Shown piece after piece: positions 31,801 through 55,801 of a stretch of DNA of 64,000 bases; position 1 is the stretch's first letter; every line of letters begins with the position of its first letter. Source of the stretch: Anaerolineales bacterium (GTDB lineage Bacteria; Chloroflexota; Anaerolineae; Anaerolineales; Villigracilaceae); assembly GCA_014860745.1 (NCBI GenBank), contig JACZJC010000064.1:62001-126000 (forward strand), written 5' to 3'. The notes under the pieces were generated by a model. That model saw only the letters and a program-made list of their open reading frames with translations, was not told the origin of the DNA and ran no database searches. Made by a program: the position numbers and the translations under genes.

Positions 31801-33711
31801 ACGCCGGTGAAACTGCTCGGCATTGTGCCTTCGATTGCCTATAATTTTATTTTGCCCACCTGGTTTGCATTGGTGGCTATTGGCGCGTTTGCGATTGGAT
31901 ATCCGATGGTTGAAGGTCGAAGGTCAAAAGTCGAAGATGATGGACCTGCGACCTTTGACCTTCGACTTGTATCCGGGATTGCCGCCTCCTTCATGACCGT
32001 TTTGATCGGCAACCTTGGGACAATGCAGCTCATCTTCAATTCGTTCCAACGCATCGCGGCGCCGGGCGGGCTGGTGCCGGCCGATGCGAATTTTGTCCAG
32101 CGCTGGGGGTGGGCGTTCAAGGGCCTGTGGATGATGATTGCCGAACAGGCACAACTGCCGATCGGGCGTGGGGATTGGTATTGGTTCCCGAGCCGTGTCA
32201 TTCCGCCGGGGCCTGGCAACGAGATCACGGAGTTTCCGCTCTTCACCTTTTTATACAGCGATCTGCACGCCCACATGCTGGTGATGCCGCTGGCTTTGTT
32301 TATCATCGCCTGGGCGCTATCGTTCGTGCGCGCGCGGGCGCAGTTGACTCGCGGCGAGTGGATTGCGGCCTTTGGCATTGGCGCGCTGGCGATCGGCGCG
32401 TTGAAGCCGACGAACACCTGGGATTTGTATACCTATTATTTGCTTGCCGCGATTGCGGCGGCATATACGTTCGTCCGTTATTTCGATTGGAAGGATTATT
32501 TCAACCTGCCCGCCTGGCTTGGGAAGACCGGCCTGGCGGTGGGCGCGGCTGTTTTGCTGTACCTGCTCAGTTCCCTGTTTTATCTCCCGTTTTCAAATTG
32601 GTTTGGGCAGGCTTACACCTCTGTGAACTGGTGGCATGCTTCGCGCACACCTGTTTCCTCCTACTTCATTCAATGGGGCTTGTTCCTCTTTCTCATCACG
32701 GTCTGGCTGGCCTGGGAAACCCGCGAGTGGATGGCCGCCACACCTGTTTCGCATCTGAGTCGCCTGAGAAAATATTCGTTGTGGATCGAGATCGCGCTGG
32801 CGGTGGTCATAGCCTTGCTCGCGTACTTCGTTTATGAAGGGATATGGATCGGCTGGTTCGCGCTTCCGCTGGCTTTTTGGGCGGCGTTGCTGATCCTGCG
32901 CGCGGACCTGCCCGACGAAAAACGGTTCACGCTCTTCCTCATCGGTACCGGCCTGTTGATCAGCATTGTGGTGGAACTCATTTCACTGGTCGGCGATATT
33001 GGCCGCATGAACACGATCTTCAAATTATATTTGCAGGTGTGGATGCTGCTGGCTGTCAGCGCGGCCGCATCCTTCGGCTGGTTGTTGAATGTCTTTCCGT
33101 TCTGGCGGCTGCGCTGGCGCACGATCTTCCAGGCGGGTCTTTATCTTTTGCTGGCAGGCGCATTCATGTTTACCCTCACCGCCACCAGCGACAAGATCGC
33201 CGACCGCTTAACCACCACCGCGCCCCACACCCTCGACGGCATGGATTACATGAATTATTCCGAACTGTGGGACGGGCAGATCATGGACTTGAGCCAGGAT
33301 TATCGCGCCATCCGCTGGATGCAGGATCACATCGAAGGCTCGCCGGTCATTGTGGAGGCCAATTGTTCGGAATACCGCTGGTGTACCCGCATGACCATTT
33401 ACACCGGCCTGCCCGGCGTGGTCGGTTGGAACTGGCATCAACGCCAGCAGCGCGGCATTTTTGCCGGGCAGGTGCAGAGCCGTGTGGATGAAATCAACCT
33501 CTTCTACAATAGCCCGGAAGTTCAGACCGCGCTCAGCTTCATCCGGAAATATAATGTGCGGTACATTGTCGTCGGCCAGCTGGAACGCAACGTTTACCCG
33601 GCCATCGAAGGTCTGCCGGATGGACTGACGAAGTTCGAACTATATAATGGCAGGCATTGGCGAGACGTTTACAAGGACGAGAGCACAACCATCTACGAAG
33701 TCATTCAATAA
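28804..33711 (+). CDS. Giant membrane protein, GT-C-like half fused to DUF2298 (YYY) half
   Basis: 1635 residues. Residues 1 to about 770 look like a GT39-type GT-C protein with an acidic first loop (EGYHQHPDELFMMGVLDNL), membrane helices, and a soluble outside domain near 470-760. Residues from about 830 on form a DUF2298 membrane domain with the signature GGYINYYYYGF at about 985-995 and the loop FPLFTFLYSDLHAHMLVMPL. DUF2298 is known mainly from Chloroflexota and Archaea and often occurs with GT-C genes; its exact reaction is not established to my knowledge. Three 7-nt repeat tracts are read through in frame inside it (29407-29490, 30108-30142, 31912-31974). Confidence 0.85.
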   Translation: MILNEKRAWLYDLLFILVLLMAGYLRIGGYGWGEGYHQHPDELFMMGVLDNLRAHTCEDPLVPVEACPPDQKRWITLKNYFDTGTSTLNPGNRGHAFFVYGNLPMTLVRVGLELSDNENIGSSKFFARQMSALADLFTIFLLYLMVSNLYGRKVGLLAAAFSSLTVMQIQQSHFFTSDLFVNLFMFLALAFAVKIVGRGRDEGQEISNEGQEASDEDLLVTHHSLLVPSIFKNPLFYLSIGFGLALGMAMASKINAAALAIALPGAFAIRYLIHDRKSTKLDTGYWSLITALLITGGLATIISFRIFQPYAFDGIGLNEQWVKNISEQRAQATGTADLPWNLQWARRNHLYSSVNLTVWGLGLPLGILAWAGFLLMGWRILRGEYKHLLLWGWTAFYFLWQSLQFNPTMRYQLPIYPLLAMMAAWVIFELPQMFKLRNTHYVIRNIAIVIGAVVLASTAIWAFAFQSIYLRDETRMAASRWIFQNVPGPVNLRIETTDEGTYNQPLSMPPDMLITAGTPYTLTFIPNRDGQITEVTLGHAMDPVPGAVIVSISPASQPDLILARASELLDSTRTTDPRGPSLTLTLDSTVPVVEEQLYVLKIETLGSALTLTGSAIANETDYDFGLPFRVDSFDPFGGIYSNDDLTLQVYWADDASKLTRFVDVLSKADYIAIPTNHQYAQITRLPERYPLTTLYYRELLGCPADEKIIECYRTAQPGQHEGSLGFELVKVFESYPTLGPLVINDQAAEEAFTFYDHPKVLIFKKTNDFRSAEVFGVLSSVDLTKVVPLTPKEAAGFKDLMLPETQAAGQRAGGTWSELFDYDWIQNKYPGVGVVVWYLFIFVLGLFAYPIARLALPGLKQYAYPLGRIVGLILLAWIAWMGGSIGVPYTRVSISGAFVLVVLAGVGLWMRRKEQFKEDWNSSRRFFVLVEILFLVFFLIDLLIRLGNSDMWHPAKGGERPMDFSYFNAVLKSTSFPPYDPWFAGGYINYYYYGFVLAGTPVKLLGIVPSIAYNFILPTWFALVAIGAFAIGYPMVEGRRSKVEDDGPATFDLRLVSGIAASFMTVLIGNLGTMQLIFNSFQRIAAPGGLVPADANFVQRWGWAFKGLWMMIAEQAQLPIGRGDWYWFPSRVIPPGPGNEITEFPLFTFLYSDLHAHMLVMPLALFIIAWALSFVRARAQLTRGEWIAAFGIGALAIGALKPTNTWDLYTYYLLAAIAAAYTFVRYFDWKDYFNLPAWLGKTGLAVGAAVLLYLLSSLFYLPFSNWFGQAYTSVNWWHASRTPVSSYFIQWGLFLFLITVWLAWETREWMAATPVSHLSRLRKYSLWIEIALAVVIALLAYFVYEGIWIGWFALPLAFWAALLILRADLPDEKRFTLFLIGTGLLISIVVELISLVGDIGRMNTIFKLYLQVWMLLAVSAAASFGWLLNVFPFWRLRWRTIFQAGLYLLLAGAFMFTLTATSDKIADRLTTTAPHTLDGMDYMNYSELWDGQIMDLSQDYRAIRWMQDHIEGSPVIVEANCSEYRWCTRMTIYTGLPGVVGWNWHQRQQRGIFAGQVQSRVDEINLFYNSPEVQTALSFIRKYNVRYIVVGQLERNVYPAIEGLPDGLTKFELYNGRHWRDVYKDESTTIYEVIQ
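29407..29490. repeat. 7-nt palindromic tract inside giant membrane-protein gene
   Basis: Twelve consecutive 7-nt units (84 nt) with a perfect 22-bp inverted repeat (29430-29451 with 29465-29486). It encodes a polar stretch at about residues 202-229. Confidence 0.95.
30108..30142. repeat. 7-nt tract inside giant membrane-protein gene
   Basis: Five 7-nt units: ATTACGT, AATACGC, ATTACGT, AATACGT, AATATCG. Confidence 0.9.
31912..31974. repeat. 7-nt palindromic tract inside giant membrane-protein gene
   Basis: Nine 7-nt units (63 nt). The GAAGGTC-like left half pairs with the TTTGACC/TTCGACT-like right half; 17-nt arms at 31917-31933 and 31949-31965 have one mismatch. Confidence 0.93.
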
Positions 33712-55344: not shown

Positions 55345-55358
55345 ATCCCCTGATTATA

Positions 55359-55407
55359 ATTGGCAATTGACAATGGATAATTGACAATGGGCAATTGATA
55401 ATTCAGA
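55359..55407. repeat. 7-nt tract, left of four-helix-bundle gene
   Basis: Seven 7-nt units: ATTGGCA, ATTGACA, ATGGATA, ATTGACA, ATGGGCA, ATTGATA, ATTCAGA. Confidence 0.95.
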
Positions 55408-55419
55408 CAGGATGAAAAA

Positions 55420-55746
55420 ATGAAAAATAATGTTGTAAAGGAAAAATCTTTTGGATTTGCGATTCGGACGGTTGCTTTGTATAAATTTCTGACAAACGAA
55501 AAGAAAGAATTCATACTGTCAAAGCAAGTGTTGCGGTCCGGCACAGCCATTGGAGCATTGGTGCGTGAAGCAGAACAGGCTGAAAGTAAAAAAGACTTTG
55601 TGCATAAATTGGCGATTGCACTCAAAGAAGCCAACGAAACAGAATATTGGCTTGAGTTGTTATATAAGACTGATTATCTTGGGGATGCAGAGTATAAGTC
55701 AATTATAATGATGTTGTTGAATTGCTCAAATTGCTTACTAGCATAA
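55420..55746 (+). CDS. Four-helix-bundle protein (S23/IVP family)
   Basis: 108 residues with the family signature FAIRTVALYKFL, LRSGTAIGALVREAEQAESKKDFVHKL and KEANETEYWLELLYKTDYL. The family was first described from intervening sequences in 23S rRNA genes and also includes the Avd accessory protein of diversity-generating retroelements. Here there is no rRNA gene nearby. Instead the gene is framed by two 7-nt tracts sharing the ATTGACA unit (55359-55407 and 55766-55800), and is AT-richer than its neighbours. This looks like a small mobile unit; function unknown. Confidence 0.88.
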   Translation: MKNNVVKEKSFGFAIRTVALYKFLTNEKKEFILSKQVLRSGTAIGALVREAEQAESKKDFVHKLAIALKEANETEYWLELLYKTDYLGDAEYKSIIMMLLNCSNCLLA

Positions 55747-55765
55747 TAAAAACCAGCAAGGGAAA

Positions 55766-55800
55766 CAATTGACAATTATCATTTGATAATTGTCAATTAG
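55766..55800. repeat. 7-nt palindromic tract, right of four-helix-bundle gene
   Basis: Perfect 15-bp arms (55767-55781 and 55784-55798); the units read ATTGACA, ATTATCA, TTTGATA, ATTGTCA. Confidence 0.95.
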
Positions 55801-55801
55801 G

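Follow-up and report, generated by a model that had tools for sequence, protein, structure and literature searches.

The available text of PMC4990558 and PMC11270868 places IVP genes in rRNA insertions, and that of PMC4990558 describes the Coxiella 23S rRNA IVS as a 428-nt insertion, termed selfish, in which an S23 ORF lies between terminal inverted repeats. Heptamer repeats, in the available text of the respective papers, are described as TAACTGA in Beggiatoaceae, Cyanobacteria and Bacteroidetes (PMC4679880), as GGGAATC in Xanthomonas, often in inverted pairs (PMC4692102), as several families in Geobacter (PMC2700814) and as heptanucleotide hairpins in the Nostoc tRNA-Leu intron (PMC3488679). 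The term S23 does not occur in the available text of PMC4679880, PMC4692102 and PMC2700814, which names no S23 partner, and the top-ranked open-access literature, our scope here (subscription papers and preprints lay outside it), yielded no link between S23/IVP and heptamer arrays. For the protein, homology between S23 and Avd has been suggested, in the available part of PMC10053308, where the title cited for the 2GSC structure speaks of five four-helix bundles. A ring that reads one repeat per subunit is described in the available text on TRAP, whose 11 subunits read 11 RNA triplets with G or U as first base (PMC4027176).

The window analysed here is a 64,000-nt stretch of DNA from an Anaerolineales bacterium, and its S23/IVP unit (Table 1) has as minus-strand neighbours an RNA methyltransferase gene, whose start codon faces it, and cysS, whose stop codon does; we take the two neighbours to be these genes from their translations. 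The predicted four-helix-bundle S23/IVP identity is secured by profile scores of 86.3 bits against PF05635 (cut-off 33.8) and 89.1 bits against TIGR02436 (cut-off 24). PF05635 is the only Pfam match of the gene, with no catalytic domain and no transposase among its matches, and Y1_Tnp (PF01797) is absent from the window unit. From about residue 95 onward, the window copy departs from the reading frame of its relatives, and the family's last helix is read in its frame +2; either decay of this copy or an assembly error near residue 95 could be the cause. Intact relatives are found at loci L110 and L111.

Table 1 Features of the window, with positions counted from its first nucleotide.
Feature	Position	Strand	Description
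S23/IVP four-helix-bundle ORF	55420..55746	+	108 aa as read
5′ arm, tandem 7-nt units	55358..55403	+	form AATKGRY, seven AAT cores: AATTGGC AATTGAC AATGGAT AATTGAC AATGGGC AATTGAT AATT
3′ arm, inverted-orientation array	55767..55798	-	about five cores; 15-bp perfect palindrome (inverted repeat) with 2-nt spacer
Whole inserted unit, arm to arm	55358..55799	+	
Gene-less hairpin, GTCGAAG units	31898..31966	.	like the arms of S23 locus L003 of the same genome

As the original prediction had it, the gene is AT-richer than its neighbours (GC 0.367 versus 0.555 and 0.547), and the window sequence confirms related 7-nt tracts on both sides, with the right one palindromic over 15 bp. Local alignment of the right tract with the inverted left tract scores 20 over 32 nt; the right tract is thus the left tract inverted, which makes the two tracts terminal inverted arrays. 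Part of the 7-nt unit is AATT, which is self-complementary. These tracts are not chance, since lag-7 self-matches of at least 21/28 occur at 6 places in the 64-kb window and at none for lags 3 to 6 and 8 to 12. L040, the locus of the window's own genome at this site, shares the 15-bp palindrome of its 3′ arm with the orthologous L054, where a single base pair differs by a paired change (T-A to C-G).

To score inverted arms, we aligned the 200 bp upstream of each gene locally with the reverse complement of the 200 bp downstream, using a threshold of at least 15. The own genome carries 10 copies of PF05635, and 55 of the 57 genus genomes searched, own included, carry at least one, whereas 14 control genomes, including that of E. 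coli, have none. Of the 39 genus loci tested, comprising the own ten plus the best-scoring loci from other genomes, 25 reached the threshold (L029, also in the 39, scored 10), which extends inverted arms to S23 subfamilies other than that of the window; among control ORFs (90 aa or longer, taken from 399 kb of the own genome), 9 of 668 did so. Many genus loci represent one site in different genomes, and collapsing by flank similarity gives 19 sites, 15 of them with a majority at or above the threshold. Inverted arms were also detected in 11/19 loci from other Chloroflexota genera and in 11/18 S23 copies fetched from genome G077. When arms of different loci were paired, the threshold was reached by 12/190 pairs in the genus, 6/95 in other genera and 0/90 in G077, so that the two arms of one locus resemble each other much more than arms taken from different loci.

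Relatives of the window protein span at least eight phyla. From at least 486 confirmed relatives, the best 80 (54 to 82% identity) formed a cross-phylum set, assigned by record title to Chloroflexota, Bacteroidota, Cyanobacteria, Clostridia and other Firmicutes, Proteobacteria, Nitrospira, Planctomycetes, Spirochaetes and Fibrobacter; one 'Bifidobacterium' MAG contig in it is probably mis-binned. Inverted arms reach the threshold in 72 of the 79 loci of this best-relative set (L148, with too little flank, stands outside the 79), and in a majority of loci in 50 of its 56 site clusters. Mixed-locus pairs reach it in 157/474 cases, because the subfamily shares similar units. The association of S23 genes with tracts, chosen beforehand as the observation on which the proposal could fail, is therefore strong, in the genus and across phyla. 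Three further loci, L227–L229 (scores 46, 34 and 30), enter no arm-score count; they are listed among the individual loci and contributed to the Mantel test and to the tests on units and cores. The median arm-to-arm span of 458 bp leaves room for little besides the S23 ORF, unlike the full-length copy of an insertion sequence or MITE family, which encodes a transposase, and the S23 stop codon is inside the 3′ tract in 25 of the 67 cross-phylum loci having both tracts. A search of phage sequences gave two proteins related to that of the window, with clear 7-nt arms absent by eye at their genes, and no match for another S23 subfamily.

The arms have a strict period, with a lag-7 tract of at least 17/21 matches in 67/79 cross-phylum loci and 0–1 loci for every other lag from 4 to 12; 8- or 9-nt repeat spacing is seen in a few S23 subfamilies. 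The unit of the window subfamily has the form A-R-T-K-N-R-Y, and its position 4 is polymorphic for T/G in 58% of 139 tracts. Unit sequence varies between S23 loci, within single genomes too. Protein similarity is correlated with the 4-mer profiles of the arms, with a Mantel r of 0.57 over 122 loci with arms scoring at least 15 (0/2000 permutations), 0.51 within the own genome (8 loci, 70/2000) and 0.40 within G077 (11 loci, 19/2000), and the least related S23 pairs have an arm similarity of 0.12 in the same genome versus 0.11 in different genomes. Together, these values indicate that the arms travel and diverge together with the gene.

Next, we compared the window site in 30 genus loci, in 17 of which the methyltransferase gene and cysS are both within the stretch, with cysS outside it in the other 13. 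Four of the 17 (L040, L054, L066 and L067, of which L066 looks frameshifted) contain an S23 element with, by eye, the same start point, seven have a gap of at most 70 bp holding nothing but a short palindrome, and six have longer gaps with other sequence, which may or may not include S23. The gap palindromes of the empty sites, perfect and short, differ among genus members, as if hairpins had been exchanged (55345-55801; L041–L069). In a Nostoc edaphicum plasmid, an element separates the beta-subunit gene of ribonucleotide reductase from the alpha-subunit gene, an interval that is a 40-bp gap in Calothrix NIES-4105; similarly, an element lies between two secretion genes in Calothrix PCC 7716, with about 130 bp of other sequence at that site in two NIES-4105 plasmids. 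Pseudanabaena galeata and Anabaena sp. 90 have different elements between cas6 and cas4, an interval in which ABRG5-3 and Dolichospermum lack one. Six Alcanivorax records show an element flanked by two genes which we presume, from their end peptides, to be glyA and nrdR. Gene and ends are both absent in syntenic relatives, so they arrive as one unit, of which the arms are the outermost parts; by eye, their start often coincides with the neighbour's stop codon. No target-site duplication was seen among occupied and empty pairs, which are too diverged for exact junctions. With empty sites both at the window site and in cyanobacterial plasmids, the proposed candidate mobile unit is well supported. 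By eye, some S23 elements are inside defence operons (L262, L267, L270, L126, L150, L113), namely twice between cas6 and cas4, beside drmD of DISARM with PglX and, in Nitrospira and Brocadia, following apparent hsdS genes.

7-nt tracts also occur away from S23 genes. In the own genome (463 kb), 29 of 34 lag-7 tracts are not within 500 bp of S23, and at least six of these gene-less tracts form tight hairpins. Tract length has a median of 4.9 units with a wide spread, counted over a set of 26, in which 25 of the 29 are joined by one tract near an S23 gene and four are left out. A cosine of at least 0.7 to an own S23 arm is reached by seven of the 29, and the mean best similarity of the gene-less tracts to own arms is 0.431, versus 0.334 for sets of other genus loci and 0.273 for cross-phylum arm sets (0/300 sets reaching the own value in either case) and 0.392 for G077 arm sets (22/300). 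The idea of S23 as a putative trans-acting factor for the tracts is thus partly supported, by a resemblance to own arms that is clear as judged against the genus sets but less clear against G077. Tract density is 1.8 per 100 kb in five S23-free genomes (400 kb) and 4.5 in ten other S23-bearing genomes (353 kb), with 4.5–7.3 in S23-bearing genomes overall; the density in the five genomes without S23 is thus lower but does not fall to zero. A single GC-rich genome of these five, G073, supplies all 7 tracts; about four look like codon periodicity and three look real, and G073 also shows weak similarity to S23 (29% over 76 aa, E 4e-5). S23-bearing G005 and G007 have no 7-nt tract in the 20 kb sampled from each. 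Elsewhere in the own genome, seven 7-nt tracts are crowded into about 10 kb (L083:1479-11739), far above average density. In another Chloroflexota genome, with no S23 match at cut-off, two inverted 7-nt tracts flank an ordinary gene reading like panC (L246:8850-9970), which may represent cargo capture or a relic.

As modelled by AlphaFold2 (pLDDT 96.4), the window protein matches the S23 crystal structures 2RLD (Z 21.2), which is of the close relative BT_0352 from Bacteroides thetaiotaomicron, and 2GSC (Z 16.9), both of which contain five chains, and by analogy with these the window protein may be a pentamer. The kinship with Avd put forward in the original prediction is supported by fold at the level of the model (4DWL, Z 12.8; 8UB7, Z 13.4). 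Since the best unrelated bundle, a designed one, reaches Z 12.5, the Avd link rests on the fold match plus the available part of PMC10053308. The S23 protein is kept by purifying selection, as shown by dN/dS of 0.02–0.17 in six usable S23 pairs, with dS high or saturated; three of nine pairs were dropped as out of register, with pN 0.72–0.76 (L119/L122, L152/L181, L135/L140).

Arms of the cross-phylum set peak at a length of 30–33 nt, and the modal arm has five cores in about 31 nt. Counting ART cores at exact 7-nt spacing, we found five in 35/80 5′ arms (four in 14, six in 15) and in 43/80 3′ arms (four in 8, six in 4), and in 1/400 shuffled 5′ flanks; the ART core was defined after viewing the same arms as those on which it is counted. 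Exact-five arms make up about half, even in the window subfamily. A 5-letter core with flexible spacing gives a less sharp mode of 4–5, since an arm of 31 nt ends before its last core is complete, and outside the window subfamily the same core gives 3 to 19 cores, again with a mode of 4–5.

We favour, as probable though far from certain, a small selfish element of about 460 bp whose pentameric S23 protein recognises the element's own ends, with the gene-less hairpins as its non-autonomous kin. The element would comprise an S23/IVP gene between inverted 7-nt arrays and would have spread across bacterial phyla as a unit. Circling a five-bundle ring takes about 31 nt, by our estimate from its dimensions. 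A pentameric S23 ring could thus directly bind its own arm as a single strand, one repeat core per subunit, and this five-to-five fit might be the cause of the modal count. The ring-bound arms would then mark both ends for a recombination or reverse-transcription step of host or foreign origin, in which an enzyme of the host or of another source would cut and join the DNA. Gene-less hairpins with a matching unit would use the S23 protein in trans, and be mobilised by the same borrowed enzymes.

Two candidate movers were considered. A Y1 transposase was rejected, as S23 number is not correlated with Y1_Tnp (rho 0.16, p 0.23). A reverse transcriptase is a weak candidate, with a rho of 0.32 (p 0.015) between S23 number and RVT_1, which becomes 0.30 (p 0.076) when the 37 genomes with a completeness of 90% or more are taken. 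RVT_1 is absent in 12/36 genomes with five or more S23 copies; none is beside the window gene, and the own genome has a sole RVT_1 match, about 107 kb away from that gene along the contig they share.

An RNA-level account, in which the arms would pair in the transcript and RNase III would excise the S23 RNA from operon mRNAs, letting the element persist harmlessly, shares its gene family and inverted ends with the Coxiella IVS (as far as the available text of PMC4990558 goes). It also fits the several elements located inside operons, and the folding energies of -31 to -50 kcal/mol for seven gene-less hairpins taken with part of their flanks. However, the differences between arms do not lean to G-U-compatible changes of the sense strand, as a conserved RNA stem would have them, with 81 such differences versus 113 others in Chloroflexota and 65 versus 88 in the cross-phylum set. 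Unit order is at most weakly copied between arms: with the register re-chosen, 6/200 permutations reach the observed score in 49 cross-phylum loci, a borderline value, and 134/200 in 14 Chloroflexota loci. An earlier register test (0/1000, 1/1000) was discarded as biased, its register having been fixed from the best alignment. Also, Rfam searches of 99 distinct S23 loci (100 entries, with L205 present twice), including 1–3 kb of flank where present, gave no rRNA match at gathering score; tmRNA, a lysine riboswitch and a T-box, in three loci, were the only matches. The arms act largely as two independent arrays of one degenerate unit, as expected for ends read by a protein, and we consider excision at the RNA level unlikely.

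The 5′ array might alternatively be an operator through which S23 controls its own expression, the 3′ array serving as a terminator or decoy and ordinary recombination moving the unit. In its favour, the median distance from the end of the 5′ arm to the start codon is 10 nt (67 loci), five cores would suit a pentamer, and the S23 genes in cyanobacterial conjugation operons look resident. Such autoregulation nevertheless leaves unexplained the symmetric, inverted 3′ arm, the joint presence or absence of arms and gene and the many gene-less tracts, and strikes us as improbable. We give still less credence to passive insertion, whereby slippage would make 7-nt tracts between genes and S23 genes would land in them as hot spots. 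Tracts are indeed common without S23, and at one cas6/cas4 pair, the S23-less ABRG5-3 holds a different, gene-less 7-nt tract at the very spot, which is a point for the hot-spot idea. The unit, however, follows the S23 protein rather than the genome, the other empty sites are by eye without such a tract, and landing within a direct tract would yield direct arms, not inverted ones.

Under the favoured reading of a selfish element that recognises its own ends, a widespread small protein annotated as 'four helix bundle protein' gains a partner and a testable role, and the match of five repeats to five subunits makes for a sharp biochemical prediction. If true, this would show a way for an element that lacks any recognisable recombinase to cross phyla. 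The tie to S23 may also explain heptameric repeats that, in the available text of PMC4679880, PMC4692102 and PMC2700814, are without a settled origin. More tentatively, and with the balance of our judgement against it, the elements could constitute an undescribed class, with five-repeat ends read by a nuclease-less ring and moved by borrowed enzymes in at least eight phyla, that accounts for many otherwise unexplained bacterial heptamer repeats and has the rRNA IVS as a special case.

Among known systems, REP/RAYT has a Y1 transposase as its RAYT and a fixed REP sequence. The elements described here resemble it in having many gene-less hairpins and rarer gene-bearing copies flanked by them, but have no transposase and a tandem unit that is specific to the locus. 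Avd, a pentamer with a nucleic-acid role in diversity-generating retroelements, has the same fold in 4DWL and 8UB7; the window gene, unlike avd, has no adjoining reverse transcriptase. As in TRAP, a ring reading one repeat per subunit is proposed, and position 4 of the unit is G or T here; the S23 protein is unrelated to TRAP, and its binding to the array is suggested by analogy. The published heptamers, in the available text, are likewise tandem 7-nt units, many of them between genes, and TAACTGA itself is found beside S23 locus L037. The likeness is closest to the rRNA IVS, with an S23 ORF and terminal inverted repeats in about 460 bp here and 428 nt there. Whereas the rRNA IVS, as described in the available text, is inside rRNA helices and cut by RNase III, the elements here are located between protein genes in many phyla, and heptamer-array ends are a feature of theirs, the rRNA IVS being compared by its description.
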